From IMG/VR virus record IMGVR_UViG_3300005589_000113, positions 1 to 21,393 of that record: a DNA stretch of 21,393 nucleotides; one strand, 5' to 3'. The notes beneath the pieces were generated by a model. That model was given only the letters and a program-made list of their open reading frames with translations, did no database searches and was not told the DNA's origin. This DNA is from a virus. Below are positions 1,508 to 21,393 of this stretch, piece after piece (position 1 is the stretch's first letter; the number at the start of each line of letters is the position of its first letter). The position numbers were made by a program, and so were the translations under genes.

Positions 1508-1556
1508 AATTAACCTTTACTCGTTTTGCTCCAATTTTAGCCACTGGTCTAACCAC

Positions 1557-6987: not shown

Positions 6988-7025
6988 ATTATAACGGGTT
7001 AATTTTGTTTTGTGGTTTGACCAGT
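6988..7025 (-). promoter_or_regulatory. Phage promoter of the 14-nt dyad class (copy 1)
   Basis: On the minus strand ACTGGTCAAACCAC (plus 7012-7025), exactly 18 nt, then TATAAT (plus 6988-6993). Transcription would start near 6981 and give a short leader with GGAGGGG before the ATG at 6961. The same 14-mer with the same 18-nt spacing to a TATA-type hexamer is present at 16515-16552 and 18319-18356. No TTGACA-like -35 exists. The -10 itself sits inside a small inverted repeat (ACCC/GGGT, 6984-6999). Confidence 0.7.
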
Positions 7026-8555: not shown

Positions 8556-8582
8556 TTATTATCTCCTCTAGTTGATGATTCA

Positions 8583-8610: not shown

Positions 8611-8764
8611 CACTTTTTTGTGTTTTATTCTCTGGCCGTACCACTTCACACTCACACCCCGGAAACCGCTCCTGCAAACTCTGCTCGATGTCGTCGGCAT
8701 CGGATAGCATGGCGAATTGGTATTGCTTGCCTTTGTAGGTGAGTTTTATTTGGTAGGGTTTCAC
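8594..8764 (-). CDS. 56-aa hypothetical protein
   Basis: The GTG at 8764 overlaps the previous stop (GTGA), giving coupled translation. The protein runs (M)KPYQIKLTYKGKQYQFAM, then LSDADDIEQSLQERFPG and CECEVVRPENKTQKS, ending at TGA 8594-8596. The pattern is beta-hairpin, helix, beta-strand (KLTYKGKQYQFAML / ADDIEQSLQERFPG / CEVVRP), as in small conserved phage proteins. Function unknown. GTG start and overlap are the main reasons to accept it. Confidence 0.65.
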   Translation of the reverse strand: MKPYQIKLTYKGKQYQFAMLSDADDIEQSLQERFPGCECEVVRPENKTQKSVDKQK

Positions 8765-9012: not shown

Positions 9013-9078
9013 ATTTATTATTTCAAATAATACCTAATCCATCAACAATATTATGAAATAGTAAGAGTTAGTTTTTTA

Positions 9079-9338
9079 ACCACTATCTCTTAACTATAAT
9101 AAACTCTTTATAATACATATACTTATAACTACTATAATAAGACATAGTGACATAGTAGAGATAGTTATAGATATATTTTAGTAGTAGTAAAAGTAGTGTA
9201 TAAGTGATTTTCTATCTCTTTTAGTAGTGTTATTTTTATATGTATCTTAGGAAAATCCACTATCTCTACTATCTCTTCTAAGTCTATGATTTCATTAAAC
9301 TTTAAGACATAGTGGCTTTCACTATCTCACTATCTCTT
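9079..9338. repeat. AT-rich repeat array (ACTATCTC units), candidate replication origin
   Basis: The gap 9013-9343 has no supported gene and is strongly AT-rich. The unit ACTATCTCT occurs at 9082-9090, 9259-9267, 9268-9276 (tandem) and 9329-9337. ACTATCTCA lies at 9321-9329, and a one-mismatch copy at 9211-9219. An inverted copy (AGAGATAGT) is at 9157-9165. The related GACATAGTG occurs at 9141-9149 and 9306-9314. TAGTAG runs fill the middle (9180-9197). Such repeats in an AT-rich stretch next to a primase-helicase gene resemble iterons of replication origins. Regulation or a recombination hot spot are alternatives. Confidence 0.6.
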
Positions 9339-9343
9339 AAATG

Positions 9344-9365
9344 AAAAAAGGCGCTAATGCGCCTT
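9344..9365 (-). terminator. Terminator at the end of the primase-helicase gene
   Basis: AAGGCGC and GCGCCTT form a perfect 7-bp stem around a 4-nt loop (9348-9365), followed on the minus strand by a T-tract (plus-strand A-tract 9344-9349). The TAG stop of the primase gene (9354-9356) lies inside the stem-loop, so the last codons double as terminator sequence. Confidence 0.85.
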
Positions 9366-11606
9366 AATTCGATATTTCACAGTTTTTCGCCGGTTCCTGT
9401 TTTCTGATTCATACTCATAATTTTCTACCAGTCCTTTTTCGGTTAATGCCTCCAGAACGCTTCTGACCTCCTCTTTTTTGTGCGGCCTGCAGCGGTTAAA
9501 TATAACACCCTGAGTTTCACCGTCAGCGCTGTTTTGTAGTATGTCTTGAATTTTTACGGCGATAGAATCGTTTGGCGACTCGTCTTTAGTAATGTTAGAA
9601 AGCGCCAGTCGCATTTTACGCTCGCAATCAGACTTAGCTAATGCGTAAGCCCATTCTACGTGTTCAAGCGTTCTAACGCCTTCGCTGATAGATAAAACGA
9701 AGCTGACCTTTGCGCATAGCTCATAGCCACGTCTAGGGATAGCTTCCAATCCGCTGTCTTTCGCATCCTCTGCCATTTGCCAGAACTCGTCTATTATTTC
9801 ATCAAGCCTGTCTGCAGCATCATCCATTGTGCTAATTGGCTTTTTGTCTGCGTAGTTTTCTATGCGCGTTCCACCCAACACGTCAAACTCGCCTAATGCG
9901 AACAGCTGGCTTAATTGCGCTGCCAAGTGCGCTGGTAGTTCTTTTTGCGTGCGTTTTCGGTTTGGTTTCGGATTGGTCTCAGGTTCGTCAAATATCATTG
10001 CGCGTGATAAAAACCCGTTAGTGGCTGTCTCAAAGTCAATCAGGCTATTAAAGGTGACGGGCGTTGTGTAGCCTATAACAGAAAGAAACGGAGCCTCGAT
10101 GCCGCTTGAAATATTATTAAGTGCGCGTTGTATCTGTGGAACCCTCCTGGCGCATACGCCGCTTGAATCCTCATTTTCTTCTATGCGCTTTTCACATGAT
10201 GACAATTCATTTTGTAGCTCTACGCGTAACGCCTCCTTTACGTCTCCACTAACGGGAAGGAATGAATCTGCTTTGCTGTAGCCACTCATAATTAAGCCGA
10301 TAACACCCTCAAGGTATGACGCGTTGCGGCTGTTCATTATCTTACGCAGTACCAGTCCCATCTCGTCGATGCTATAGAAAGCGGCCTGGTGTCGAGTAAG
10401 GTTTCTTACTATTTCTTGTTCCGACTTAATGGCGCCATGCATCGCATCAATTAAACCTGCTGCGCGTAAACAGTCAGCGAAGCATTGCTGTATATGCTCT
10501 TTGCCAGTGGAGGAGCCAGCAACGCAGAAGCTAATAAGATTTGCGGTCATACCGTCGCGCTCGTCGATGTATTTTAGGCCAGCTATATTGCCAACCGCCT
10601 GAAGCGCTGCAGCAACTGCCAGGTTTTCGCGCTTGTAACGTGAGCTATCGTTTATCCATTTTGCAATCTCTCCCACAAGACCAGGCGGGCGCTTCAAGTC
10701 AACCATTGGATTAGAACCGGTTGGCTGCTCGTCGTATTCAAAGGTCACTGGCTGTTTGTATCCGCCCTCTTCTGCGTAATGAATAAGCGTGCCCATTTGA
10801 ACTGGGTTACTGCATTTACCAAAGCTGTGCCAGTGGCGCTGTATGACATCAAAGCCAGGGTACTTTTCGCCTCGACTGCTCCATGTATCGAATATGTCGA
10901 TACCATCACCGTTAAATGTGTGATGGATAGCCATGCCGCATCGTATCCAGGTATCGTAGTCAGTGTCTGGTGAAATGTAAGACAGGATATCCGAACACTG
11001 TTGCTGTGTCATATCAATAACGCCACGGGGGGTGTGGGCGCGATATGTGTCTGGTTTCTTTAGTAGCTGCAGCAAACCGGCAGGAGGATCTGAAATGTCT
11101 GACGCGCTACCATGCAGGACTTCATACTCCATGCCGCTTTTATGTAACGAAGATGGACCAACTACATACCCGCTACTTTTAAAATCAATACCTCTGTATT
11201 TCTCATGATGCTGCTTTAGTGCGGCGCCACTGCCATTTTTAAAGTAAAGGTGCATGGAGCCATTCCCGCTACCTGTAGCAACTACTAGTCCGGATTCACT
11301 TAACAAGTCGCAGTCAAGGTCGTGACAAAGCTTCACAAACGAGTCCACACCGCCATTCCTTGCATCAACATCTATTACTAGTAAACCAGATACCAGAACA
11401 CCGTAACCGGTAGAAAAGTGGCCCATTTCCTCCATGGTTTCTAATTGCTCGTCTGACCAATCTGGGGTGTGCTGCCAATTGCTATTGCATGGGTGCTTTC
11501 CTATAGCCTCACATTCTTGGTCTCCACAAGCGCACTTGCCATTAATAATTTGGTGCAAGCCAAATACCTTGTAGCCTTCTTCCACGAAGTCGTAATGATT
11601 AGCCAT
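9354..11606 (-). CDS. Primase-polymerase / DUF3987 helicase replication protein
   Basis: 750 aa. Residues 1-190 are an AEP-type bifunctional primase/polymerase: C25-x-C27 ... GKHPC (36-40), the catalytic IDVDA (D79, D81), TGSGNGSMHLYF (111-122) and GIDFKSSGYVVGPSS (139-153). Residues about 200-285 form a PriCT-type C-terminal primase helical domain (YDTWIRCGMAIHHT ... GTLIHYAEEGG). The rest matches DUF3987, a helicase-like domain with a Walker A-like AGSSTGKE (363-370) and a SIDEMG Walker B-like segment further on. Together these domains would prime and unwind phage DNA at the replication fork. The start has GGAG 8 nt upstream; the HTH gene lies immediately before it. It ends in a terminator and faces the AT-rich repeat array. 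Confidence 0.92.
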   Translation of the reverse strand: MANHYDFVEEGYKVFGLHQIINGKCACGDQECEAIGKHPCNSNWQHTPDWSDEQLETMEEMGHFSTGYGVLVSGLLVIDVDARNGGVDSFVKLCHDLDCDLLSESGLVVATGSGNGSMHLYFKNGSGAALKQHHEKYRGIDFKSSGYVVGPSSLHKSGMEYEVLHGSASDISDPPAGLLQLLKKPDTYRAHTPRGVIDMTQQQCSDILSYISPDTDYDTWIRCGMAIHHTFNGDGIDIFDTWSSRGEKYPGFDVIQRHWHSFGKCSNPVQMGTLIHYAEEGGYKQPVTFEYDEQPTGSNPMVDLKRPPGLVGEIAKWINDSSRYKRENLAVAAALQAVGNIAGLKYIDERDGMTANLISFCVAGSSTGKEHIQQCFADCLRAAGLIDAMHGAIKSEQEIVRNLTRHQAAFYSIDEMGLVLRKIMNSRNASYLEGVIGLIMSGYSKADSFLPVSGDVKEALRVELQNELSSCEKRIEENEDSSGVCARRVPQIQRALNNISSGIEAPFLSVIGYTTPVTFNSLIDFETATNGFLSRAMIFDEPETNPKPNRKRTQKELPAHLAAQLSQLFALGEFDVLGGTRIENYADKKPISTMDDAADRLDEIIDEFWQMAEDAKDSGLEAIPRRGYELCAKVSFVLSISEGVRTLEHVEWAYALAKSDCERKMRLALSNITKDESPNDSIAVKIQDILQNSADGETQGVIFNRCRPHKKEEVRSVLEALTEKGLVENYEYESENRNRRKTVKYRIKAH

Positions 11607-11607
11607 G

Positions 11608-11847
11608 TTATTGCTCCACCCAAGTTAACACGTCTGGCCGCAACTCCTCTTTTTTGAAGTAGCCTTTTGTCAGCCTTTCAACTTCTATAGCCATGGTCGC
11701 TGGTATCCTCCCTCTTTTTTCCCAATACTGCACAGCTTGTCTTGTTACGTTAAGCTGCTCAGCAAGCCTGGCCTTACTTCCTACCCATTCTATGAGCCGG
11801 TTAAGCTCAACCCTTTGCTGTATCTCTATATGTTTAGCTGATTTCAT
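11608..11847 (-). CDS. YdaS/Cro-like HTH regulator
   Basis: 79 aa starting at ATG 11847 (MKSAKHIEIQQRVELN), with AGGT about 8 nt upstream; the in-frame start further up would run into the promoter region. The core LIEWVGSKARLAEQLNVTRQ followed by AVQYWEKRGRIPATMAIEVE is a classical Cro/YdaS helix-turn-helix: ARLAEQLNVT, then the recognition helix RQAVQYWEKRG. The C-terminus (TKGYFKKEELRPDV) matches YdaS-type proteins. It is the first leftward gene, facing the recombination operon across a 102-nt control region, and lies 1 nt before the primase gene. It probably acts as a switch repressor that limits one or both divergent transcripts (inference). Confidence 0.85.
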   Translation of the reverse strand: MKSAKHIEIQQRVELNRLIEWVGSKARLAEQLNVTRQAVQYWEKRGRIPATMAIEVERLTKGYFKKEELRPDVLTWVEQ

Positions 11848-11861
11848 ATTTTTACCTGATG

Positions 11862-11880
11862 TTTTACATTTTATTTTACA
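11862..11880. promoter_or_regulatory. Direct repeat in the divergent control region, possible operator
   Basis: TTTTACA occurs at 11862-11868 and 11874-11880, 12 bp apart, between the HTH regulator gene and the rightward promoter. A spacing near one helical turn would suit a dimeric or cooperative repressor such as the adjacent HTH protein. The repeat is short and AT-rich, so the assignment is tentative. Confidence 0.35.
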
Positions 11881-11886
11881 AAGTGT

Positions 11887-11916
11887 TTGACAAGCATAAT
11901 TCAATAGTTCTATGAT
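11887..11916 (+). promoter_or_regulatory. Rightward sigma70 promoter of the recombination operon
   Basis: A perfect TTGACA (11887-11892), an 18-nt spacer and TATGAT (11911-11916) lie upstream of the Sak4-like gene. Transcription would begin near 11923. The gene has AGGAGGA (11939-11945) before its ATG. This is the strongest promoter match in the window and the likely early rightward promoter. The leftward promoter for the HTH gene must lie in the same 102 nt but is not clear. Confidence 0.7.
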
Positions 11917-11949
11917 TACAACCGTTGAAGAGAGAAAGAGGAGGATATT

Positions 11950-12714
11950 ATGTCTTTACTATCAACAGTGTCTAAACCAAAAAACCGGCCTGTCATAGCC
12001 ACTTTTCTAGGTGACTCGGGCCTTGGCAAAACATCAACCGCCGCAACATTCCCAAAGCCAATTGTTATTCGTGCTGAGGATGGACTGCAGGCAATCCCAG
12101 AAGCGCATCGCCCTGATGCATTCCCAACATTAACCAAAGTCGACGACTTATGGGAGCAATTGACAGCGCTAGTTAAAGAGGAGCACAACTATAAAACATT
12201 GGTTGTTGATTCTGTTACTGCGTTAGAGCGTTTATTTATTCAGCATGTCATTGAAAGTGACCCAAAACAGCCTCGATCAATCAACCAGGCATTAGGCGGA
12301 TACGGTGCGGGGCTTGCAGCAGTGGCAGCCATGCATCAGCGTGTGCGAAAAGCGTGTGGTGTCCTAAATGAGCGCAAAGGTATGCATGTTGTATTTATCG
12401 GCCATGCCGACACAGAAACGATTGAGCTGCCAGACCAGGACGCTTACACGCGGTATAGCTTGCGCCTTGGTAAGAAGTCAGTAGCGCCTTATGTTGATGA
12501 TTCTGACATTGTAGGCTTCATTAAGCTAACCACATTCACTACAGGCGATGGTGAGCGCAAAAAGGCAATTTCTGACGGAAGCCGTCAGCTTGTTTGTTAT
12601 GCGACTGCCGCAAACGTATCAAAAAACCGCTTTGGCATTACGGATGATATTCCTGTTGAGCTAGGCAAAAACCCATTAGTTAACTTTGTTCCATCATTAA
12701 AAGAAGGTAAATAA
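11950..12714 (+). CDS. Sak4-like RecA-fold ATPase (single-strand annealing recombinase)
   Basis: 254 aa, usual length for phage Sak4/AAA_24 'nucleotide-binding' proteins. Walker A GDSGLGKT is at residues 21-28, IRAEDGLQAI at 40-49 and Walker B TLVVDSVTAL at 83-92 (Asp87). The segment HVVFIGHADTE (about 146-156) is the sensor-like strand with its His. A later part, KSVAPYVDDSDIVGFI, resembles RecA-core ATPases such as Sak4, which anneal ssDNA together with an SSB. It has a strong AGGAGGA ribosome site. It is the first gene of the rightward operon, followed after 2 nt by the SSB-like gene and then an exonuclease, the usual phage recombination order. Confidence 0.85.
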   Translation: MSLLSTVSKPKNRPVIATFLGDSGLGKTSTAATFPKPIVIRAEDGLQAIPEAHRPDAFPTLTKVDDLWEQLTALVKEEHNYKTLVVDSVTALERLFIQHVIESDPKQPRSINQALGGYGAGLAAVAAMHQRVRKACGVLNERKGMHVVFIGHADTETIELPDQDAYTRYSLRLGKKSVAPYVDDSDIVGFIKLTTFTTGDGERKKAISDGSRQLVCYATAANVSKNRFGITDDIPVELGKNPLVNFVPSLKEGK

Positions 12715-12716
12715 TT

Positions 12717-13238
12717 ATGTCATTTTGGAATCTATCAGATAACAGCGAAAACCTGCAAAACAACAACGGAACATTCGACGCTGGCGGCGGCGAAATGGAG
12801 CCAATCCCAAAAGACACGCAAGTAAAGGCGGCGTGTGAAGAAGCTAAGTGGGATTCATACGAAGGTGATGAATACATCAATCTTAAATGGACGGTCCTGG
12901 CGCCAGCGGAATATAAAAACCGCAAAATCTTTCAGAAAGTGCGCGTTATGGATTCTGACACCAAAAAAGCGGACAAGGCAAAGCGTATGCTTGCTGCGAT
13001 TGCCGCCAATGCTGGTGGCGGGTTATTGAAAGTTGAAGGCAAGCCGACCGATATGGACCTGCAAAAGAACCTAGCAATGAAGCCCATGGCGCTAACACTG
13101 CAGGTGTGGGAGATTGAAAAATCAGACGGCACGGGCAAGGCAAGTGGAAATTGGGTGCAGCAAGTGGCGCCATTAAAAACGCAAGCGCCAGTTGAAGAGG
13201 CGCAGAAAGGTAGCGTAGACCCAGATTTGGGCTGGTAA
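12717..13238 (+). CDS. DUF669-like single-stranded DNA-binding protein
   Basis: 173 aa. The core ACEEAKWDSYEGDEYINLKW followed by TVLAPAEYKNRKIFQKVRV has the beta-rich form of DUF669/OB-type phage SSB-like proteins ('y.gR.if...v'), and DKAKRMLAAIAANAGG resembles the helical part of DUF669. The C-terminus PDLGW is short, acidic and ends in an aromatic residue, like the tail by which bacterial SSB recruits partners. Together with the Sak4-like ATPase just upstream it forms a likely annealing pair. AAGGT precedes its ATG. Confidence 0.75.
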   Translation: MSFWNLSDNSENLQNNNGTFDAGGGEMEPIPKDTQVKAACEEAKWDSYEGDEYINLKWTVLAPAEYKNRKIFQKVRVMDSDTKKADKAKRMLAAIAANAGGGLLKVEGKPTDMDLQKNLAMKPMALTLQVWEIEKSDGTGKASGNWVQQVAPLKTQAPVEEAQKGSVDPDLGW

Positions 13239-13276
13239 TTTTAATGGGCGGTTCGCCGCCCTATATAGGAGGATTT

Positions 13277-14116
13277 ATGGAGCAACGTACAAACGAATGG
13301 TTTCAGGCTCGTAAAGGCCGCATTACTGGAAGCGTAGTAGGTGCTATTTTAGGGTTGGCGCCTTATATGACGCGTGATGATGTTATGCGTCAAATGGTGC
13401 GTGAATACCACAATCAGGAGCGTGAGTTTAAAGGCAATGCCGCGACGCAGTGGGGCACGGCAATGGAGGAAACGGCAAAGGCTGATTTTGAAATAACGTG
13501 CGGGCACGATGTAGAAGATGCGCCGTTTGTCCAGTGGGATGAAGATTGGCTTGGCGCATCACCGGATGGCTACGTTGGTGACAATGAGTTGCTAGAAATA
13601 AAATGCCCGTATGGTTTACGCAATCAATATCCGACCATCTTTAAGAGCATTGATGAGCAGCCGCATTACTATGCTCAAATTCAAATTCAACTGCTTGTTA
13701 CGGATCGCATAGGGTGTTATTTCTGGCAATGGTCACCGCACGGAAATCAATCTGAATACGTTCCGTTTGATCCGCTATGGATTGATGAAAACCTTCCAAG
13801 GTTGCGCGAGTTTTACGCGGAATACTTAAACGAGCGCGAGCACAACGCGTGGAAATACATTACAGGCGGCGAAGTAGCAAAGCGCTACCAATTGGCAAAG
13901 GCTGCGCTTGAAGTGGCTAAAGTCGAAATGGAAGAAGCAAAAGAAGCACTGATAGCTGCCACCAATAACGAAGGTGGGAAGATTGGCGACTTAACTATTA
14001 CGCGAGTAAAGAAGAAAGGTGCCGTATCTTATCAGAAGGCACTTAAAGAGTTGGCGCCAGATGCTGACCTAGAAGTTTATCGTGGTAAAGATAGCGAGTA
14101 TTGGAGGATTAGTTAA
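13277..14116 (+). CDS. YqaJ / lambda-type recombination exonuclease
   Basis: 279 aa from ATG 13277, which has GGAGG 6 nt upstream; an in-frame upstream ATG at 13244 lacks such a site. The PD-(D/E)XK core is complete: GTAMEE (60-65), LGASPDG (92-98, D97), LEIKCP (106-111, E107 and K109) and the helix YYAQIQIQL (131-139). These are the residues of lambda exonuclease/YqaJ family enzymes, which resect one strand of dsDNA to give ssDNA for annealing. The N-terminal NEWFQARKGRITGS is the family's usual opening. The C-terminus has a lysine/glutamate-rich helix. Context (Sak4 and SSB before, helicase after) supports the role. Confidence 0.92.
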   Translation: MEQRTNEWFQARKGRITGSVVGAILGLAPYMTRDDVMRQMVREYHNQEREFKGNAATQWGTAMEETAKADFEITCGHDVEDAPFVQWDEDWLGASPDGYVGDNELLEIKCPYGLRNQYPTIFKSIDEQPHYYAQIQIQLLVTDRIGCYFWQWSPHGNQSEYVPFDPLWIDENLPRLREFYAEYLNEREHNAWKYITGGEVAKRYQLAKAALEVAKVEMEEAKEALIAATNNEGGKIGDLTITRVKKKGAVSYQKALKELAPDADLEVYRGKDSEYWRIS

Positions 14117-14117
14117 T

Positions 14118-15947
14118 ATGCCATTGCGCGACTACCAACAGGAATCTCTAGATAAAGCGATCGATTGGCTAAAAACGTCTTTTGAGCCTGGAGTTCTAGA
14201 CCTAGCAACTGGAGCAGGGAAAAGCCATATAGTCGCGGCATTGGCAGAATGGGCAAGCAAAGCAAGCGGTAAAAAGGTGCTTTGCTTGGCCCCTTCCAAA
14301 GAGCTAATAGAGCAGAACAGAGAGAAGTTTTTAGCAACTGGAAATCCTGCCAGTATATTTAGTGGCAGTGCTGGTAGAAAATGTCTAAAACATAATGTTG
14401 TGTTTGCGACTGAAAAAACCGTGCTGAACGAAATAAACAAATTCTGTGGAAAGTTTGGGTTGATAATTATTGATGAATGCCACCGGATAACGCCGACAAT
14501 TAAACAGATAATTTCACACATAAAAAAACAGAATAACAAGGTGCGCGTTTTAGGGTTAACAGCCACGCCTTACAGGTTAGGCACTGGCTACATTTACCAA
14601 TACGGGGAGGACGGGGCGCCAGTTGCTGAAAGCGAAACGCGGGAGCCATATTTTAACAAGTTAATATTCCGAGTTCCTGCGCAACTTTTAATTGACAGAG
14701 GCTACCTGACGCAGCCGCACGCCGACCCTGACGTTATTGACCATTACGATACGACGGCGTTAGAGCGAAATTCCACCGGAGCATTCACTGCAGCAAGCCA
14801 GGAAAAAGCATACGAAGGTAAGGGTCGGTTAACATCTAAAATAGTTGCCGATATAGTTGAGAAATCTCGCTATAGAATGGGCGTGATTGTTTTCGTGTCG
14901 AGCGAAGCGCACGGGAAAGAAGTAATGGAGTCACTTCCAAAAGAAAACAGCCGCATGCTAACTGGAAAGGTTAGCAAAAAAGAGCGTGAGAGACATATTG
15001 CAGATTTCAAGGCGCAAAAGTTCAAATACTTCGTCAATATCCAGGTATTAACAACCGGATTTGACGCGCCGCATATCGACGTAGTGGCCTTACTAAGACG
15101 CACCGAGTCCGTAAGTCTACTGCAGCAAATGATTGGCCGTGGATTGCGATTGCACGACCATAAAAAAGATTGCTTGGTTTTGGATTATGCAGAGAATATT
15201 GAAAATCATTGCCCAGATGGTGATTTGTTTAACCCAGATATAAAAGTTTCCGGAGGAACAGGCGATGGCGAGCCTGCAGAGATAATCTGCCCAAGCTGCG
15301 GAACTGCAAATTTATTTAAGTTGCGCCCAAATGATGAAGGGTTTGAATTTGACGAAAACGGGTATCTGATAGATCTTGAAGGTAATCGTATAATGACAGA
15401 TGAAGACCAGCCTATGCCAGCACACTGGGGACGCCGGTGCTTTGGTCAATCAATAATTAGAGGAATAAGCGACAGGTGCGAATACAGATGGTCGCACAAG
15501 TTGTGCGAAGATTGCGGCCATGAGAATGACATAGCCGCTAGGGTTTGTGAGCAATGCAAAGGTGAATTGGTGGACCCAAATGAGAAGCTAAAAATTGAGT
15601 TCGCCAGGATAAAAAAAGACCCATACACCCCAACTATTGACCGTGTTTTGTCATGGAATGTTAGGCTAACAAAGAGCATGAAAGGCAATGAAGTTATACG
15701 AGTGACTTATGTCACTGAATGCCGTACGTTTGAAATGTTCTACAGCCTGAATATGCGTTATGAATGGGTTCCATTTTGCAGGGCCACACTGGGAAGAATT
15801 GTTGAATCTGAGCAAGATTACATCGAAGCGCATTGGGCTGGTGAAGCGGTAATGCCAGAAAACATAAAAGCATATCGTGAAAATAAAAAATCACGATTTT
15901 ACAGAATAGAGGGATATAACTATGAAGATACCGAAGTGGCTGCCTAG
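14118..15947 (+). CDS. DECH-box superfamily 2 helicase with C-terminal zinc fingers
   Basis: 609 aa from ATG 14118, one base after the exonuclease stop, with GGAGG upstream. Motifs: MPLRDYQQESLDKAI (Q-motif-like), Walker A ATGAGKS (30-36), DECH (119-122), TATP (148-151), TTGFDAPHID (312-321) and motif VI QMIGRGLR (337-344). The C-terminal part has paired cysteines at C391/C394, C463/C466 and C477/C480, two zinc-ribbon-like units (CPSCG; CEDCG ... CEQCK). It resembles the SSL2/UvsW-type phage helicases that unwind or migrate recombination intermediates. It overlaps the VRR-NUC gene by 26 nt. Confidence 0.9.
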   Translation: MPLRDYQQESLDKAIDWLKTSFEPGVLDLATGAGKSHIVAALAEWASKASGKKVLCLAPSKELIEQNREKFLATGNPASIFSGSAGRKCLKHNVVFATEKTVLNEINKFCGKFGLIIIDECHRITPTIKQIISHIKKQNNKVRVLGLTATPYRLGTGYIYQYGEDGAPVAESETREPYFNKLIFRVPAQLLIDRGYLTQPHADPDVIDHYDTTALERNSTGAFTAASQEKAYEGKGRLTSKIVADIVEKSRYRMGVIVFVSSEAHGKEVMESLPKENSRMLTGKVSKKERERHIADFKAQKFKYFVNIQVLTTGFDAPHIDVVALLRRTESVSLLQQMIGRGLRLHDHKKDCLVLDYAENIENHCPDGDLFNPDIKVSGGTGDGEPAEIICPSCGTANLFKLRPNDEGFEFDENGYLIDLEGNRIMTDEDQPMPAHWGRRCFGQSIIRGISDRCEYRWSHKLCEDCGHENDIAARVCEQCKGELVDPNEKLKIEFARIKKDPYTPTIDRVLSWNVRLTKSMKGNEVIRVTYVTECRTFEMFYSLNMRYEWVPFCRATLGRIVESEQDYIEAHWAGEAVMPENIKAYRENKKSRFYRIEGYNYEDTEVAA

Positions 15948-16347
15948 TTACGGCGACATGGAATTTAGGGGCAAATGCCCATTAGAAAGCGCTGAGCAGA
16001 TAACGCTATTTAATATTATCAGAAAGCGTTACCCACAAGCTATCCATCCGAGAAATGAAGGAAAGAGAACGCACAACCAAGTTAAGCGTCAAAAAGCGGA
16101 AGGTATGACGCCAGGCGCGAGCGATTTAATTATACCTGCAGCGGTATGTTTCGTTGGTGAATTAAAGCGACAGGATCACACGCAAAGCGTTTGGCAAGAT
16201 GGGCAAATAGAGTATTTAGAAAATGCAAAAAATGACGGCGCATTCGTATGCGTGGCGTTTGGATATAAAGCAATGTTAGAGGCCATAAGAGAATGGGAAG
16301 AATTGAACAATCAAATCAAATTGATGATATCTTCGAAGGAAAGTTAG
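15922..16347 (+). CDS. VRR-NUC domain nuclease
   Basis: 141 aa, nearly the whole domain. SAEQITLFNIIRKRYPQAIH has the family's early acidic/Gln residues, followed by HPRNEGKRTHNQVKRQKAEG and the catalytic GMTPGASDLIIP (Asp68), then FVGELKR (Glu80, Lys82) and the closing Gln-x-x-Tyr-Leu helix (GQIEYLENAKNDG). This PD-(D/E)XK subfamily includes structure-specific nucleases used in recombination and repair. GAGGGAT precedes the ATG. Its start lies inside the end of the helicase gene, indicating coupled expression, so the two probably act on the same intermediates (inference). Confidence 0.88.
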   Translation: MKIPKWLPSYGDMEFRGKCPLESAEQITLFNIIRKRYPQAIHPRNEGKRTHNQVKRQKAEGMTPGASDLIIPAAVCFVGELKRQDHTQSVWQDGQIEYLENAKNDGAFVCVAFGYKAMLEAIREWEELNNQIKLMISSKES

Positions 16348-16349
16348 CT

Positions 16350-16556
16350 GTGCCAGATGCTGACCAAGAAGTTCAAACATGGTTTGAACTTACCGTTTAT
16401 AACCTGGCTATGCAGATAGTGAAGGCGCCCACAGAGAAAAGAAAAGAACTAGCAGAAATGGTAGATCCGCAATGGCGAGATGATGTTTTGCCATTAGCTA
16501 GGAAGTTAGTCGCCACTGGTCAAACCACCTTGGCGCGTAGAGATGGTATATTGTAG
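16350..16556 (+). CDS. Small hypothetical phage protein (68 aa, alternative start 16293)
   Basis: I prefer the GTG at 16350, which lies 2 nt after the VRR-NUC stop and has AAGGA 9 nt upstream. An ATG at 16293 would add 19 residues and overlap VRR-NUC by 55 nt. The protein, (M)PDADQEVQTWFELTVYNLA, then QIVKAPTEKRKELAEMVDPQ and RDDVLPLARKLVATGQTT, is helical and acidic, like small conserved phage proteins near recombination genes. Function unknown. Its last 14 codons contain the promoter motif copy at 16515-16528. Confidence 0.65.
   Translation: MPDADQEVQTWFELTVYNLAMQIVKAPTEKRKELAEMVDPQWRDDVLPLARKLVATGQTTLARRDGIL
16515..16552 (+). promoter_or_regulatory. Phage promoter of the 14-nt dyad class (copy 2)
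   Basis: ACTGGTCAAACCAC (16515-16528), exactly 18 nt, then TATATT (16547-16552). The start would be near 16559, right before GGAGGGG and ATG 16574. It lies inside the 3' end of the preceding gene, so the protein carries TGQTT. The spacing matches the copies at 6988-7025 and 18319-18356. Confidence 0.75.
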
Positions 16557-16573
16557 GAAATGGAGGGGAAATT

Positions 16574-16756
16574 ATGACACAAGACGAATTTTTAAAGATG
16601 GGATGGGGCGCAAGCTCAAAATGCAAAGTTATTGATAGCGGCGAGATTCTCGATGTTGTTAGCGTTAACTTTGGAGAGAGGTTAATAGGACTTGATAGGT
16701 ATGACGACATTGATGACCTTGCTTGGTTTAGATGCGAATCGGTGGAGGTTGTTTGA
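16574..16756 (+). CDS. 60-aa hypothetical protein
   Basis: MTQDEFLKMGWGASSKCKVI, then GEILDVVSVNFGERLIGL and a C-terminal DDIDDLAWFRCESVEVV. The short beta-rich sequence with the W-F-R-C-E end is typical of small phage proteins that I cannot name. The start has a strong GGAGGGG and lies right after the promoter at 16515-16552, making it the first gene of the second rightward block. Confidence 0.65.
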   Translation: MTQDEFLKMGWGASSKCKVIDSGEILDVVSVNFGERLIGLDRYDDIDDLAWFRCESVEVV

Positions 16757-16758
16757 TT

Positions 16759-17112
16759 ATGACAAAACAACAACTACTAGCGCTGTTGCGTGAGGCGTTC
16801 AATATGGGCTATGAATCAAGCAGCCGATATCATTGCGACATTGCAGGAGATTTAATGAACGACCATGGTTTTATTGACTTGGTAGAACACACAAACCGCG
16901 TAGGTGATTTGGAGTTGCCTGTGCTTTCATCTGACACCCAATGCGAGCATGAATATGTCACTGGATATGACCATGGCACATGCAAAAAATGCGGATGGAT
17001 ATTCACTGACGGCGGATGGGGAATTGCTAAACGAATGTGGTTTAAAAGCCTTGATGATGCAAAGTTCTATAAGCAGCATGGTCGACTACCACAACCACCG
17101 GAGGGAGTATGA
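16759..17112 (+). CDS. Hypothetical protein with a zinc-binding C-H-C-C motif
   Basis: 117 aa from ATG 16759, which has GGAGG about 10 nt upstream and lies 2 nt after the previous stop. Residues: MTKQQLLALLREAFNMGYES, a helical start. Near residues 65-85, CEHEYVTGYDHGTCKKCGWI gives C-x-H and C-x-x-C, a probable zinc knuckle. Further on come KSLDDAKFYKQHGRLPQPP. The family is not recognised; a nucleic-acid or regulatory role would be a guess. The stop overlaps the Lar gene by 4 nt (ATGA). Confidence 0.7.
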   Translation: MTKQQLLALLREAFNMGYESSSRYHCDIAGDLMNDHGFIDLVEHTNRVGDLELPVLSSDTQCEHEYVTGYDHGTCKKCGWIFTDGGWGIAKRMWFKSLDDAKFYKQHGRLPQPPEGV

Positions 17113-17402
17113 GTGAGTTAAAGCCGTGCCCGTTTTGTGAGGGGAAAGCAAGATTTGAAAGGATTGGAAATGCAAGGCGTTCGACGGTTGTGGTTTGCGA
17201 GGATTGCGGCTGTAGGCATGAATCAGGGTTTGTCGGACATATGACATACGCTGGATGGAACAACCGCCCACACGAAAACAAACTCAAAGCCGATGCTGTG
17301 CGTGAGGCCATAGGTAGTGTGTCATACAAGGGTGATACTCAGTATGACGTTTTGCGCCAGCTTGAGGAATACGCCGACAAGCTTGAAAGGGGTGAGTTAT
17401 GA
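17109..17402 (+). CDS. Lar family restriction-alleviation-like protein
   Basis: 97 aa. The N-terminus MSELKPCPFCEGKARFERI followed by STVVVCEDCGCRHESG matches the Lar family (CPFC ... VxCxxCGC), a small zinc-binding fold. Further on, TYAGWNNRP gives the family's conserved W-N-x-R. In lambdoid phages, Rac-encoded Lar eases host type I restriction; the same role here is inferred from family only. The C-terminal part (LRQLEEYADKLERGEL) is an added helix. Coupled to both neighbours (4-nt overlaps). Confidence 0.85.
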   Translation: MSELKPCPFCEGKARFERIGNARRSTVVVCEDCGCRHESGFVGHMTYAGWNNRPHENKLKADAVREAIGSVSYKGDTQYDVLRQLEEYADKLERGEL

Positions 17403-17611
17403 AAATCATATCATCAAAAGTAGATTACCCGAACATGACCTGTGAAGAGATAGTTGCAAGTGGGATTTCTCTATCAGGTGATGCGCTGGAGTTGTTTATG
17501 CATAATGCAAAAGAAAGCGATGCTGACGAATTGACAGAGTTAAAGGAATCTGTGCACGAGGCGTTATCAACCATTATGCTTGCCGTATCAGAATTGGAGG
17601 GCGAGCTATGA
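17399..17611 (+). CDS. 70-aa acidic hypothetical protein
   Basis: MKIISSKVDYPNMTCEEIVA, then SLSGDALELFMHNAKES and a helical, acidic C-terminus (DELTELKESVHEALSTIMLAV). The gene overlaps its neighbours by 4 nt at both ends. The helical end could form a coiled-coil dimer. No family recognised. Confidence 0.65.
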   Translation: MKIISSKVDYPNMTCEEIVASGISLSGDALELFMHNAKESDADELTELKESVHEALSTIMLAVSELEGEL

Positions 17612-17796
17612 CACGCGACTGGGTTAAAAACCAACTTATCGCCATCGCCAAGACCAACGGAGCTACTCAGAATCAAGCTGAGAGCATCGCCAACCCATTA
17701 GCGACTAAGTGGGAGCATAGCCAAATAAAAGGCACTGACAAGCTTTTTAAAGAGGCTATCAAGCAAGCCAAGAAACTAAGTAAGGCAAAGAAATGA
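17608..17796 (+). CDS. 62-aa basic hypothetical protein
   Basis: MTRDWVKNQLIAIAKTNGAT, followed by QNQAESIANPLATKWEHS and a lysine-rich tail (LFKEAIKQAKKLSKAKK). The basic helical tail suggests nucleic-acid contact (inference). GGAGG precedes the start and it overlaps both neighbours by 4 nt. No family recognised. Confidence 0.65.
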   Translation: MTRDWVKNQLIAIAKTNGATQNQAESIANPLATKWEHSQIKGTDKLFKEAIKQAKKLSKAKK

Positions 17797-17996
17797 CCAA
17801 AAACACAGGCAAAGCATCGTCGCCAGGATTAATCGCCTTGCTTGAGCGTAATGGTGTAAGGCCACTAAGCGGAAGCACTGAAAACATAGCAATCGTCAAG
17901 ACAAGTGAATTAGCGCTTTCTAAATTTAGCGGGCTTTGCGGTGATGGTAAGTTAAGCCTTGTGAATATAGGATGGATTAAAAATGAAATTAACTGA
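17793..17996 (+). CDS. 67-aa hypothetical protein
   Basis: MTKNTGKASSPGLIALLERN, GVRPLSGSTENIAIVKTSEL, then LSLVNIGWIKNEIN. The gene overlaps its upstream neighbour by 4 nt and the next gene by 14 nt. No motif or family is recognised. Confidence 0.6.
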   Translation: MTKNTGKASSPGLIALLERNGVRPLSGSTENIAIVKTSELALSKFSGLCGDGKLSLVNIGWIKNEIN

Positions 17997-18336
17997 TTTA
18001 ATTGGTCAGCACGTCGAATCGGTAAGTTGGAATGACTTGGACCTGCTGAGAAGTCACGAGCCGTTGATTTTCACTGACAGGAATTCAATTGACCTGATAG
18101 CGGAATGGGCTGAGCACAACAAAAGGAAATTTAAAGCTGTTGTCGGAAAGTATGGCTTTAAAAGATATGCAGTTTTCCTTGTAAAGAAAACAAAAAGAAA
18201 ACACCCATGGCACGAGCCACAAAGGGTTAGTTGTGACTTTTTGGAGAATCAGCTATTTTCATATCAGGGTAAGGGTATTCTTACGGCCAGTGAGTTTACC
18301 GATAAAATGAAAGGCTTAACTGGTCAAACCACATAA
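17983..18336 (+). CDS. Hypothetical phage protein, 117 aa
   Basis: MKLTDLIGQHVESVSWNDLD, then SIDLIAEWAEHNKRKFKAVV and a basic KKTKRKHPWHEP segment; the end reads GLTGQTT. An N-terminal domain and a basic middle suggest possible DNA binding, without proof. The start lies 14 nt inside the preceding gene. Its last codons contain the 14-nt promoter motif at 18319-18332, with TAA directly after. Confidence 0.65.
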   Translation: MKLTDLIGQHVESVSWNDLDLLRSHEPLIFTDRNSIDLIAEWAEHNKRKFKAVVGKYGFKRYAVFLVKKTKRKHPWHEPQRVSCDFLENQLFSYQGKGILTASEFTDKMKGLTGQTT

Positions 18337-18356
18337 TCGAAAAATGGTGGTATAGT
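18319..18356 (+). promoter_or_regulatory. Phage promoter of the 14-nt dyad class (copy 3)
   Basis: ACTGGTCAAACCAC (18319-18332), exactly 18 nt, then TATAGT (18351-18356), preceded by TGG as an extended -10. The start would be near 18363. The following lipoprotein gene has GGAGAAG 8 nt before its ATG at 18387. Same arrangement as the copies at 6988-7025 and 16515-16552. Confidence 0.75.
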
Positions 18357-18386
18357 TAAATTATCAACTAACGGAGAAGTGAAGAA

Positions 18387-18791
18387 ATGAAAAAAATAAC
18401 AGCTTTAACATTTGCATTGTCGGCAATATTGCTTGCTGCTTGTGACGATGCAACGGTAGCATCAAGAAACCTGTCAAAAGCAGCGGATAATTTTGAGATT
18501 GCCAGAAGGGTTGTTTTTTACAACGGAATAACGGGTGACTATATACTATCAGTGCAAGGGTTGTGCTCTGTGAGCGACTCAGGCAGAAGTGTTTCATTTA
18601 CCTGCAAAACAGACGACGGAAAATATGTCAAGCACATGCTTGGTCTTTCTGATAATGTCACTTACTTCTCTGAGCAGCTTTCTTCTCATGAAGTTAGCGT
18701 TTATCAGTACCGTGTAACATTCAAGCCTGACGCGATTATTCCTGACTTTAATTTGCGTAGCTCTTTAGTGCAGGATGGCAGCAATTACTAG
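18387..18791 (+). CDS. Phage lipoprotein, inner-membrane type (beta-sandwich BSLP-like)
   Basis: 134 aa. MKKITALTFALSAILLAACD is a lipoprotein signal with lipobox LAAC (residues 16-19); Cys19 would be acylated. Asp20 and Asp21 follow, and Asp at +2 keeps lipoproteins in the inner membrane of gammaproteobacteria. The mature part (DDATVASRNLSKAADNFEIA, VVFYNGITGDYILSVQGLCS, GLSDNVTYFSEQ, YRVTFKPDAIIPDFNLRSS) matches my memory of a phage family annotated 'beta-sandwich lipoprotein', which may exclude superinfecting phages. It has its own promoter and is flanked by hairpins. Function in this phage is inferred. Confidence 0.8.
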   Translation: MKKITALTFALSAILLAACDDATVASRNLSKAADNFEIARRVVFYNGITGDYILSVQGLCSVSDSGRSVSFTCKTDDGKYVKHMLGLSDNVTYFSEQLSSHEVSVYQYRVTFKPDAIIPDFNLRSSLVQDGSNY

Positions 18792-18819
18792 GGAGTGCGA
18801 TTCACTCCCGTAAGGAGTG
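18791..18819 (+). other. Competing hairpins after the lipoprotein gene
   Basis: GGGAGTG (18791-18797) pairs with CACTCCC (18803-18809) directly at the TAG stop. A second GGAGTG (18814-18819) can pair with the same CACTCC, so two stem-loops exclude each other. There is no T-tract directly after the first stem, so it is not a standard terminator. It may act as a processing site or attenuator. Confidence 0.4.
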
Positions 18820-18950
18820 TGTTTTTGGTGTGGCTTTCAAGGATGTAACGCGAGAAGCGCCCGAAAGTTTTGGCAAGTAGATTACGAAAGCTTTGACAAT
18901 TAAGGTAATGAGCTCGGTCAGTGTGGTATCGAGAGCCACACACAAAAACA
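18820..18950 (+). ncRNA. Candidate structured RNA closed by a 19-bp helix
   Basis: 18820-18838 pairs with 18931-18950: 8 bp, one bulged A (18942), then 11 bp with one G-U pair. The loop of 92 nt contains CGC-GAGAA-GCG (18849-18859) and an 8-bp helix (18864-18871 with 18887-18894). GTGTGG (18921-18926) competes with the 5' arm for CCACAC (18936-18941), so an alternative hairpin exists. No ORF that I can support uses this region. It could be a phage sRNA or a leader of the small membrane gene at 18993. No Rfam class can be assigned by eye. Confidence 0.5.
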
Positions 18951-18992
18951 TTTAACAACACCGCAGCAGTATCGCGGATAACGGAGATACTC

Positions 18993-19127
18993 ATGCGTAG
19001 AATTAACATAGAGACACCACTTGTACAAAATGAAACGCCAAGCGCGTGTATTATTAGCGCTCTTATTGTGGGCATCATGGCTTCTGCTGTGGCCTTTGTT
19101 GCTTACATGGTAGGGTGTTTGCTTTAA
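18993..19127 (+). CDS. 44-aa single-helix membrane protein
   Basis: The ATG at 18993 has CGGAG 7 nt upstream. The protein begins MRRINIETPLVQNETPSACI and its C-terminal half (ISALIVGIMASAVAFVAYMV) is one membrane helix. The basic N-terminus suggests that end stays in the cytoplasm. A frame opening upstream at 18921 lies in the structured RNA and is unlikely. Function unknown; possibly a holin/antiholin accessory or an exclusion protein (guess). Confidence 0.6.
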   Translation: MRRINIETPLVQNETPSACIISALIVGIMASAVAFVAYMVGCLL

Positions 19128-19143
19128 CCAACGGAGAAACAAA

Positions 19144-19563
19144 ATGAACGAAGAATTACAAAAGGCTTTAGCTGACGTTATAAACAAAGCTGCATCGGGG
19201 ATTGATACTGCATCGGACTTTATCATGGCTGAATTGCCAGAAGTGGTGCAGCAGGCCATGACTTGGTACATGGTGGAGTCTCTGATTTATTTTGTGATTG
19301 GCGTCATCATGATTGCATCTTCATACAAGATCATAAAATATCAACATTCACTTTTTTATGATGATGAGGGAAATCTTGCTAATTGGTGCAGTAGCTACTC
19401 ATATACAAATGGCATAGGAGATTTGGCGATATTGGGTATTGCTATTTTAGACATTGTTGCGTCAGTAGTGGCAGTATGCTTTGTTTTTAATATTACATGG
19501 CTAAAAATCATGATTGCGCCGAAGCTATGGCTAATCGAATACGCGGCTAAATTAGCCGGATAA
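19144..19563 (+). CDS. Phage membrane protein (two or more helices), holin-like
   Basis: 139 aa. MNEELQKALADVINKAASGI, then DFIMAELPEVVQQAMTWYMV, a membrane segment (LIYFVIGVIMIASSY, residues about 47-61), a polar loop (YQHSLFYDDEGNLANWCSSY), a second segment (GDLAILGIAILDIVASVVAVCFV, about 92-114) and APKLWLIEYAAKLAG at the end. This order resembles phage membrane proteins with an amphipathic N-terminus and a 'P(K/T)-W-L-I-E-Y-A' end that I recall near lysis or exclusion genes. Some are annotated as holins; the evidence here is limited. Starts after AACGGAG. Confidence 0.7.
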   Translation: MNEELQKALADVINKAASGIDTASDFIMAELPEVVQQAMTWYMVESLIYFVIGVIMIASSYKIIKYQHSLFYDDEGNLANWCSSYSYTNGIGDLAILGIAILDIVASVVAVCFVFNITWLKIMIAPKLWLIEYAAKLAG

Positions 19564-19570
19564 TTTCAAC

Positions 19571-19639
19571 GCCACCGGCAGTCACGCATAATTTAACTGT
19601 TAGCGCAGTCGCGATGTGTGACTACCTCAAACCGGTGGC
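19571..19639 (+). ncRNA. Long intergenic stem-loop RNA
   Basis: A nearly continuous hairpin: GCCACCGG (19571-19578) with CCGGTGGC (19632-19639), 8 bp; AGTCACGCAT (19580-19589) with ATGTGTGACT (19614-19623), 10 bp including one G-U; ACTG (19596-19599) with CAGT (19606-19609). One strand of the internal loop has 1 nt, the other 8 nt. T5 follows 4 nt later (19644-19648), so partial termination is possible. The length suggests a functional RNA element or a processing/antitermination site between the two genes. Confidence 0.5.
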
Positions 19640-19657
19640 ACCATTTTTGGAGTGGAT

Positions 19658-20071
19658 ATGATTCACAACGTAGAAGACAAAACGAAAAAAGAACTTGTCG
19701 AGATAGTCAAGATTCAAATGGAAGAATATAAAAAGCTTCTAGATGTCAATATAGAGCTTGGTAAACGCCTAGCAGCAGTTGAGCGGGAACGGGATGAGTT
19801 AAAAGGTGCTTACATTCTGTTAGACGGATTAAAGCGGAGAATAAGAAGTGCTTTCGAGTATTGGCCTGATTTAGCTATGCACAAAGACCTATCAGTATTG
19901 CTCAATACGCGTCCTAGTCAGCAAGTGATAAACAAATTCGCCATCGAGCAGCAGATTGAAGGAGCTAGATGTTATGCAAGAAGGCTTCATGATGTTGGCT
20001 TGGTTGGGGTTTGGGATGTATTTGATTCAGTGTGCGAGCAACTACGCCAAAAGATAAACGGGGGTGAGTGA
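19658..20071 (+). CDS. Coiled-coil hypothetical protein, 137 aa
   Basis: ATG 19658 (MIHNVEDKTKKELVEIVKIQ) has GGAG 5 nt upstream; a GTG two codons earlier is less likely. The first 60 residues (MEEYKKLLDVNIELGKRLAAVERERDEL) form a coiled coil. A soluble part follows (SAFEYWPDLAMHKDLSVLLN), ending LRQKINGGE. Common in phage accessory regions and usually uncharacterised. Confidence 0.65.
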   Translation: MIHNVEDKTKKELVEIVKIQMEEYKKLLDVNIELGKRLAAVERERDELKGAYILLDGLKRRIRSAFEYWPDLAMHKDLSVLLNTRPSQQVINKFAIEQQIEGARCYARRLHDVGLVGVWDVFDSVCEQLRQKINGGE

Positions 20072-20190
20072 TGATTCTAACACGCTGGCTAAAAAGATGG
20101 ACGCTGGAAGAGATAGCGCTAAAACACGGCGTTAAAGTTGAAACTGTCGTGGATTATTTGCGGGTTCGTAGTGGGGAGTGGGTGAAGTGA
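20071..20190 (+). CDS. 39-aa HTH-like mini-protein
   Basis: The ATG at 20071 shares one base with the previous TGA (TGATG); GGTGAG precedes it. The protein begins MILTRWLKRWTLEEIALKHG and continues VKVETVVDYLRVRSGEWVK. TLEEIALKHGVKVETVVDYL matches a helix-turn-helix. No family is named. The end overlaps the GTG of the next gene by 4 nt. Confidence 0.6.
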   Translation: MILTRWLKRWTLEEIALKHGVKVETVVDYLRVRSGEWVK

Positions 20191-20390
20191 AGATAGAAGT
20201 AAAAGGCGGTGACATTGTAATGATTATGCTGTGTATTTTTGCAGCGCCAGAGTTGAGAGGCATGTTCTTAGATTACGGGTTTTGGGTTTCATCCGTAGTG
20301 CTAGTCGCAATGTTTTTAATTATCGGGCTTGCGCTTCTGTTTATTGACTTGCTGTCTTACTTGGCGGCAGAATTTATTAAAAGTAAATAG
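20187..20390 (+). CDS. 67-aa membrane protein with two helices
   Basis: The GTG at 20187 overlaps the previous stop (GTGA), with GGGGAG 8 nt upstream; a GTG at 20178 is an alternative. (M)KIEVKGGDIVMIMLCIFAAP leads into a first hydrophobic segment, then a polar turn (ELRGMFLDYG) and a strong helix, FWVSSVVLVAMFLIIGLALL, then a cytoplasmic tail. Size and two-helix form fit a small holin/antiholin or a general phage membrane protein. It is the last gene of the rightward transcript; the terminator follows at once. Confidence 0.6.
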   Translation: MKIEVKGGDIVMIMLCIFAAPELRGMFLDYGFWVSSVVLVAMFLIIGLALLFIDLLSYLAAEFIKSK

Positions 20391-20411
20391 CCGCCTTCGG
20401 GCGGTTTATTT
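20391..20411 (+). terminator. Terminator between converging operons
   Basis: CCGCC-TTCG-GGCGG (20391-20404) is a perfect 5-bp stem with a stable TTCG tetraloop, followed by TTTATTTTTT. It ends the rightward operon. The TAA of the holin gene (20406-20408, minus strand) lies in the T-tract, so both transcripts converge here. Confidence 0.9.
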
Positions 20412-20879
20412 TTTACTATCAATACCATTCTTTTTGTCATAGCTGCGCATACTCGCAACTCCAAGCAAAGCCATGACCAGCCCGATAATGTCAGATACGC
20501 CCAAATCAGGAAATGCGGGCACAATAAGATTAGACGCACCATCCCAAGCATTAAGCATAGTAATCGCCTGTACGGTCCATATGTAGGTCATAACAAGCGC
20601 CTTGGGCACGTACATTAGGAATAGCGACACAGCGCCAACCCATCCTATTGCAGGTCGCCACCACGCTTGAAACTTGCTTTTACTATTAGCGTCAATCTTG
20701 TTTATGTCAATCTGACCAACCAAAAGCTTAACTTCAGCCTGCAACCTTTCCATATCGCCACTGTGAGCGATTGTGGCAAGCTCTAGTTTGCGCTTGTCGG
20801 CTTCATCAGCATCAGGCCAAATCTTGTCTATAATTGTGCTGCCTGCGTCTAACAGGGCTGTAATTGGGTCGGCTGCCAT
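20406..20879 (-). CDS. Holin of the 3TM superfamily
   Basis: 157 aa. Opening MAADPITALLDAGSTIIDKI followed by WPDADEADKRKLELATIAHS and an amphipathic helix, then the hydrophobic WWRPAIGWVGAVSLFLMYVP (residues 73-92), a further hydrophobic stretch around 93-107 and a final helix (DIIGLVMALLGVASM). This matches the Holin_3TMs family, in which the N-terminal 'P-x2-A..D/E..K/R' and 'W-W-R-P' segments recur. Such holins make membrane holes at lysis. The ATG shares one base with the upstream DUF5675 stop (TAATG). Confidence 0.85.
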   Translation of the reverse strand: MAADPITALLDAGSTIIDKIWPDADEADKRKLELATIAHSGDMERLQAEVKLLVGQIDINKIDANSKSKFQAWWRPAIGWVGAVSLFLMYVPKALVMTYIWTVQAITMLNAWDGASNLIVPAFPDLGVSDIIGLVMALLGVASMRSYDKKNGIDSKK

Positions 20880-21271
20880 TAGCTTGCAATCTCCAAAACA
20901 AATGAATCCTCACCATACCACTGTAAGAGTAATTCGCAAGCTTTCGTCGAATCCACCGCGACTGGCTCGCTTGTCATTGGGCCGCCTTTTATGTCGAGGC
21001 ATGGCGCGATACATCCTTGCAAATGGCGTAGTAGTGATGCGGGGTGAATCTCAATATGTGTACGCGGGTCAGTTTCTTCGTTGCGGAATTTATACCAGCG
21101 ATGTTTGCCGGTGTGGTCTCGGTCAACGATGTATTGACCTTCTGGAATGCATGATTTGCCGATTTCGTTATTTCGCCAGGGTAGCTCTAATGTGTAGATT
21201 AATTGGCCGTCTGGTAGATACCATTCGCCGGCCGTGTAGTGTTTGTGGTAGTTACGAGTTATTTTCGCCAT
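20879..21271 (-). CDS. DUF5675 family protein, possible cell-wall enzyme
   Basis: 130 aa, whole domain: IYTLELPWRNNEIGKSCIPE followed by GQYIVDRDHTGKHRW and THIEIHPASLLRHLQGCIAP. This matches DUF5675. The pairing of His76 (IEIH) with Cys87 (GCI) resembles the active site of L,D-transpeptidase (YkuD) proteins. Its place between a membrane protein and the 3TM holin suggests a role in lysis, for example endolysin-like, but no activity has been established by sequence. No other lysozyme is seen in the window. The start overlaps the previous gene by 20 nt. Confidence 0.8.
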   Translation of the reverse strand: MAKITRNYHKHYTAGEWYLPDGQLIYTLELPWRNNEIGKSCIPEGQYIVDRDHTGKHRWYKFRNEETDPRTHIEIHPASLLRHLQGCIAPCLDIKGGPMTSEPVAVDSTKACELLLQWYGEDSFVLEIAS

Positions 21272-21393
21272 TGCGCTTAGATTCCTGAGCTTTTAGCTTG
21301 TACTCTAAACGTCTATAGTACACATCGCAAGCATTCTTAACAGCAAGCGAAATAACACCGATTAGCGGTGCCCATGCTAACCAGTCTGGTGCG
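21252..21393 (-). CDS. Partial membrane protein, N-terminus beyond the window
   Basis: The frame is open from the right edge to TAA at 21252-21254; about 46 residues are visible. DWLAWAPLIGVISLAVKNAC is a membrane helix, followed by a basic cytoplasmic part (VYYRRLEYKLKAQESKRNG). It sits immediately upstream of the DUF5675 and holin genes, so it may be another lysis protein (holin/antiholin), but the N-terminus is missing and the family cannot be fixed. Confidence 0.6.
   Translation of the reverse strand, partial: APDWLAWAPLIGVISLAVKNACDVYYRRLEYKLKAQESKRNGENNS

Follow-up and report, generated by a model that had tools for sequence, protein, structure and literature searches.

What reads a short DNA dyad that recurs at one fixed distance before three promoters of a single virus? 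The question arises from the IMG/VR record IMGVR_UViG_3300005589_000113, whose 21,393 bases (hereafter the window) carry portal, terminase, primase/polymerase and recombination genes; the primase was named by a profile match and most of the others by eye from the list of open reading frames. The dyad, ACTGGTCAAACCAC, is found exactly at 7012(-), 16515(+) and 18319(+), and each copy lies 18 nucleotides (nt) before a -10 box that is followed by a Shine-Dalgarno sequence and a gene. We propose, with a probability of about one half, that these dyads are operators of a FadR-type activator of the GntR family, most likely the FadR of the host, at promoters of phage accessory genes. The proposal was built by comparing the window, numbered G000, with other viral contig records (G001 and so on).

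The dyad has the core TGGT-CAA-ACCA in the window. At the first promoter, P1, the operator (7012..7025, minus strand) is followed after 18 nt by TATAAT (6988..6993), and the predicted start near 6981 would put the operator centre at about -37. The operator of P2 (16515..16528, plus strand) precedes TATATT (16547..16552), and that of P3 (18319..18332, plus strand), which lies within the 3′ end of gene 17983-18336 (protein end LTGQTT), precedes TATAGT (18351..18356). Re-reading the sequence confirmed the dyads, the spacing and the three hexamers as the initial annotation had described them. At two of the three promoters, P2 and P3, the letters TGG stand immediately 5′ of the hexamer and form an extended -10. 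When up to three mismatches were allowed, the window held six matches to ACTGGTCAAACCAC against 1.36 expected, and none of 100 shuffles reached six, so that the copies do exceed chance, as had been claimed; the pattern read backwards had no match in the record. A scan of positions 5001-21393 for canonical sigma-70 promoters (TTGACA-like -35 at 16-18 nt) listed none of P1, P2 and P3, in agreement with the reported lack of a -35 element. In addition to the copies named earlier we found a fourth, with one mismatch (ACTGGTCTAACCAC, 1543..1556, plus strand), between genes that by eye are Mu-F-like and portal; neither strand shows a -10 18/19 nt away from it, and it occurs in the same context in G001, G002, G004, G005, G007 and G017. 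If a site is called promoter-type when a -10 lies 18 or 19 nt away, whichever the strand, three of the four window sites qualify, and in all three a ribosome site and a start follow within 75 nt.

The motif and its spacing are conserved in related phages. A search of viral contigs in which the 14-mer had to be followed by 17-19 nt and TAT yielded 58 stretches, some of them chance matches without a -10; several exact 14-mer matches without a -10 were judged by eye to be chance and were excluded from the site and unit counts. Many of the carriers form one mosaic group (G001-G005, G007, G014-G018), whereas G006 and G010 are more distant. The mosaic group has at least five recurrent promoter units. 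For P1, P2 and P3, motif and spacer were 100% identical over 6, 6 and 5 distinct instances, respectively, and the -10 boxes 90-100% identical, whereas identity outside the unit (upstream of -5 and past +20) was only ~0.24-0.52. The unit is conserved while its flanks diverge, and the genes behind one and the same promoter differ between phages. A fourth unit (P4, three instances) has an identical upstream flank as well, and G016 has different structural genes yet holds promoter units and accessory genes in common with the group. Separate units have only the 14-mer and the spacing in common and not the sequence of the spacer. Both G017 (73.5 kb) and G007 (67 kb) contain a self-repeat at ~40 kb, as if a pair of related phage genomes, each about 40 kb long, had been joined in one contig, so their counts include duplicates.

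In other phages the dyad extends into a more complete palindrome, AACTGGTYNRACCAGTT; G006, G010 and G019-G022 each hold 6-13 such sites when at most one mismatch over ten fixed positions is accepted. Among the 60 sites of these six records, a -10 was present at exactly 19 nt in 31 and at 18 nt in four; counted by orientation, 32 of 120 fell at 19 nt and every other offset within 5-44 gave 0-6. Promoter-type sites made up 7/13 in G006, 4/9 in G010, 6/6 in G019, 9/13 in G020, 6/13 in G021 and 3/6 in G022, and TGN stood directly before the -10 at 27 of these 35. Many of the phage -10 hexamers are poor (for example TATGGT and TAGGCT). A scan of viral contigs with free spacing gave 64 distinct sequences, of which 24 had the 18/19-nt spacing and 0-5 each other spacing, compared with 1/65 at 18/19 nt for an everted motif and 7/62 for an ATTGGT-ACCAA motif. 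Each of these histograms was drawn from 80 loci (out of at least 118 stretches for the palindrome, at least 120 for the everted motif and 109 for ATTGGT), and duplicate intervening sequences were counted once. The everted control was itself enriched at 32-35 nt before an extended -10 (24/65), for which we have no explanation. The identical units among close relatives and the 18/19-nt peak in distant phages are what the initial annotation had asked of its own idea, and together with the geometry they support its promoter class, in which a dyad at about -44 to -31, predicted to bind a regulator, precedes several accessory operons.

The palindrome suggests an operator for FadR, and with it phages that would drive accessory genes through a metabolic sensor of the host. 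The FadR probe for fadBA in the probe table of PMC4259882 is CTGGTACGACCAG, and the same 13 letters are present in G022. We built a FadR matrix from seven Escherichia coli sites among the probe sequences of that paper, fabA and fabB included, and counted sites of at least 11 bits, both within and outside the one-mismatch palindrome set. There were 17 in G006, 9 in G010, 8 in G019, 19 in G020, 20 in G021 and 7 in G022. As controls we used 10 shuffled sequences and 100 column-shuffled matrices per record; shuffled DNA averaged 0.1-2.1 sites per record (maxima 1-5), the column-shuffled matrices averaged 0.8-3.0 (maxima 6-16), and in each of the six phages the FadR count exceeded all of its controls of both kinds. 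G006 and G010 hold the window-type 14-mer as well as the fuller palindrome. As the window sites do not stand out in the matrix counts, the link of the window to FadR runs via these two relatives, and the same protein would have to read its variant sites.

The layout of the phage promoters also resembles that of promoters activated by FadR. The 30 best-scoring fabA loci, out of 190 genomes that have the gene, were compared. In 26, 24 of them distinct, the top FadR-like site lay exactly 20 nt before TANNNT (taken as the -10), and this count was unchanged with a matrix omitting fabA and fabB. The FadR-activated fabA and fabB promoters of gammaproteobacteria (PMC4259882, PMC4537474) have, like those of the phages, a CTGGTNNNACCAG-type operator and no recognised -35, and PMC4537474 reports that fabA is activated by FadR and repressed by oleate. 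In both systems the operator is set a short fixed distance before the -10. They differ in that the distance is 20 nt at fabA and 18/19 nt in the phages, where the operators are predicted ones and serve accessory genes; many of the phage palindromes are more perfect than the fabA/fabB sites, those of the window not. FadR scored over the cut-off in 149/197 genomes of the order of Alkalimonas, an order picked through one genome-scan match and not as that of a known host.

By analogy, a FadR-type dimer would sit in the place of the -35, centred at about -37/-38 as in FadR-activated promoters, and help the sigma-70 RNA polymerase of the host to start at an extended and often weak -10. The most likely reader would be the host's own FadR, a sensor of long-chain acyl-CoA. 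Accessory ('moron') operons lying among replication and structural genes would then be on from the onset of infection, while free acyl-CoA is scarce. Phage-encoded activators such as lambda CII, Mu Mor and T4 MotA act at activator-dependent promoters. There, as proposed here, the activator binds in place of the -35 or over part of it, but in those phages the activator is encoded by the phage itself, whereas our best candidate is a metabolic regulator of the host. Dispersed operators are known from phages too, as in the C1 sites of phage P1 and the stoperators of mycobacteriophages. These likewise occur in many copies across one genome, some away from promoters, but the present dyads stand, as activator sites do, at a constant distance from a weak extended -10, and no common phage repressor was found.

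A FadR-like DNA-binding domain is encoded by two related phage records themselves. The 89-amino-acid (aa) protein G007:337-606 matched FadR in its top six PDB sequences (E 8.6e-6 to 1.2e-5), followed in seventh place by another GntR protein (E 3e-5). Its best NCBIfam match was also FadR (2.7e-8), over the DNA-binding part only (profile positions 26-73 of 235), and the alignment shows a winged helix with the REVL letters of FadR and the HGKPTK letters of its wing. In its 89 aa the C-terminal acyl-CoA-binding domain that FadR has is absent. The position that we take to be R35 of FadR is not kept. The Pfam GntR score was 20.3 bits, under the cut-off of 27, and a single-sequence AlphaFold model (pLDDT, the confidence score of the model, 40.5) was not usable. 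The protein is also present in G017, and the end of its gene overlaps an operator. Such a stand-alone domain could compete with host FadR, or replace it, at the same sites.

Several results weigh against FadR as the activator of these promoters. The window operators score 9.9-11.7 bits (the E. coli sites range from 9.1 to 19.1), below two unrelated matches in the window, and the FadR-matrix counts of the window (4, control maximum 6), G017 (12, maximum 13) and G016 (4, maximum 10) fall within the range of column-shuffled matrices. The spacing is 1-2 nt off that of fabA. Many operators have no promoter, for example in G006, G020 and G021 and at the 1543 copy, and extended -10 promoters can in general fire without a -35 or an activator. 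Among ten cultured phages, with hosts including Vibrio, Alteromonas and Pseudoalteromonas, nine have no promoter-type site and the sole carrier, Vibrio phage pYD21-A, has one. By terminase comparison the nearest cultured relatives infect Idiomarinaceae (71% identity) and Pseudoalteromonas (69%); cultured relatives, infecting Pseudoalteromonas, Idiomarinaceae, Vibrio and Alteromonas among others, are without such a promoter set. The FadR-like domain is found in only two motif-bearing records, G007 and G017; it is thus an accessory factor and not the common reader of the dyad. A second, more diverged GntR-type domain (G007, ~59.2-59.4 kb) finds its best matches among GntR proteins that are not FadR. 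When viral contigs were scanned for GntR-type domains, four loci in three records came up; in the third record the domain is of this second type, and no operator lies within the 13.5 of its 23.4 kb that were examined. A GntR family search of 22 phage records gave matches in four, one of them above the cut-off.

Could the reader instead be a DNA-binding protein of the phages, activating these promoters as a phage regulon, as the 'dedicated phage' class of the initial annotation implied? Phages often encode small DNA-binding regulators, and the FadR-like domain shows that these phages are able to carry a matching reader. The candidates are small proteins of helix-turn-helix (HTH) appearance encoded at 7761-8117(-), 5736-5924(-) and 11608-11847(-), or some protein not recognised as a regulator. 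The 7761 type was present in 10/10 window-type records tested (G010 included) and the 5736 type in eight, but neither was found in the dyad carriers G006, G019-G022, G026 and G027, and the Pseudoalteromonas phages SL25 and PHS21 have the 7761 type and no dyad site. The 11608 type is swapped for a different HTH protein in G001/G007, though the motif, spacer and -10 of P1 and P2 are unchanged there. Across eight gene sets (G006, G007, G010, G016, the second half of G017, G019-G021) the helicase was the sole universal family in BLAST clusters, and HTH-type families reached at most five; this search had a gene-caller floor of 40-45 aa, BLAST is weak on short proteins and the sets may be incomplete. 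Neither profiles nor BLAST clustering placed any phage HTH protein in every motif-bearing set, and we rejected these proteins as a universal reader. With no regulator-like family in all eight sets and an operator that resembles that of host FadR, the idea of a dedicated phage regulator has lost ground; we consider it unlikely, and host FadR or a close GntR relative is favoured.

That relative need not be FadR. Another host regulator of the GntR/FadR subfamily with a similar half-site is a somewhat improbable reader, yet not a far-fetched one. Half-sites of the form TGGTNNNACCA are common in this subfamily (PdhR-type), the centre of the window-type sites is CAA/CTA where several E. coli FadR sites have CNG, and the failure of the FadR matrix to single out window-type sites also speaks for this explanation. 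FadR itself is favoured by CTGGT-ACCAG, which several other phages carry with the two outer bases present, as E. coli fadBA does, by the absence of a comparable spacing peak at ATTGGT-ACCAA sites and by the top match of the phage domain. The 60-bp units might also be kept mainly as recombination joints for swaps of accessory genes, so that the 14-mer would reflect descent and not regulation. Units identical in motif and spacer between phages with strongly differing flanks are compatible with this, but distinct units have the 14-mer and spacing without the spacer, and distant phages keep the geometry with other spacers, which makes the explanation very improbable.

A further alternative concerns the mode of action and overlaps with all readings of who binds. 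The dyads could be repressor operators over extended -10 promoters, comparable to dispersed phage operators such as the C1 sites of P1, with the accessory genes silent until the repressor leaves. This would accommodate both the many dyads without a promoter and the ability of extended -10 promoters to fire alone. At some sites, moreover, a -10 on the reverse strand abuts the operator: in six genomes, reverse-strand hexamers matching at least 5/6 lay 1-6 nt past the operator in 11 cases over 42 promoter-type sites (~0.9 expected) and at 11-12 nt in four more (15/42 in total), and by eye, from the open reading frame lists, several of them face structural-looking genes. The fadL probe of E. coli listed in PMC4259882 is similar, with a site that runs into TATACT. 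We did not detect a reverse -10 beside the operator at the three window sites. A repressor, however, requires no exact spacing, whereas the spacing here is fixed at 18/19 nt, and hexamers such as TATGGT and TAGGCT are expected of activator-dependent promoters. Repression as the mode is accordingly rather unlikely in our estimate. The initial annotation had left activator and repressor side by side; the fixed spacing, the missing -35 and the many poor -10 hexamers argue for activation, and an activator is favoured, short of proof. A double role in which the bound protein activates one side and blocks the other would fit, although the numbers are small.

The suggestion of lysogenic expression was not supported as worded. 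None of 13 records, the window included and some of them perhaps fragments, matched the Phage_integrase or Resolvase families, and a lytic life is on this count likelier. Lysogeny keeps some plausibility from gene 11608-11847(-), which passes the cut-offs for P22 Cro and CI repressor, and from the PHROG label 'RDF' on a gene behind P3.

The three promoters lead into small-gene blocks. P1 precedes a minus-strand block that opens with a DUF7296 gene (PF23969, 6626..6961), and its -10 lies inside an inverted repeat, ACCC-N8-GGGT (6984-6999), which is possibly a second operator. The block behind P2 opens with a 60-aa gene (16574..16756, plus strand) whose product had no match in Pfam or PHROG. The gene after P3 (18387..18791, plus strand) encodes a small protein, lipoprotein-like by eye, that carries the database labels PF25682 (Phage_VG64) and PHROG 478 (the one labelled RDF). 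In G016 and G017 the P3 unit leads straight into a leader that in the window is found at ~18951-18995, so gene 18387-18791 looks inserted behind P3. Elsewhere in the window, a canonical sigma-70-like promoter (11887-11916; TTGACA, 18 nt, TATGAT) stands ahead of the recombination operon and opposite gene 11608-11847(-), which is YdaS/Cro-like; transcription of core genes may start from an ordinary promoter. In the AT-rich region 9000-9360, next to the primase gene, CCACTATCTCT words recur and there are inverted repeats of 17 nt; the region is possibly an origin or a regulator site. No Rfam family and no tRNA was found when the window was scanned. The phages SL25 and PHS21 carry another dispersed palindrome, TTATA-N4-TATAA, in six and four copies, which perhaps marks a different regulon. 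A scan of bacterial genome contigs for the promoter motif gave three stretches, in metagenome-assembled genomes of Lachnospiraceae, Campylobacteraceae and Alkalimonas, which is about the level that we estimate for chance.

On a broader view, which we put forward as speculative and unlikely as a whole, a loose gene pool of tailed phages with differing structural modules would have placed accessory operons, as many as about nine in one genome, under host FadR, and the release of FadR would serve as a metabolic switch between early and late expression. Given the reverse-strand -10 boxes that face structural-looking genes, release, whether by acyl-CoA or by the phage FadR-like domain, could lower the accessory genes and raise the structural ones. 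Among the papers listed by searches of an open-licence library, none was seen to report phage promoters that depend on FadR, which does not show that none exists. If host FadR does read these dyads, the phages would sense the lipid state of the cell through the host's master regulator of fatty-acid metabolism and time their accessory genes by it, and the operator-spacing signature would also reveal accessory operons in phages that have not been annotated.
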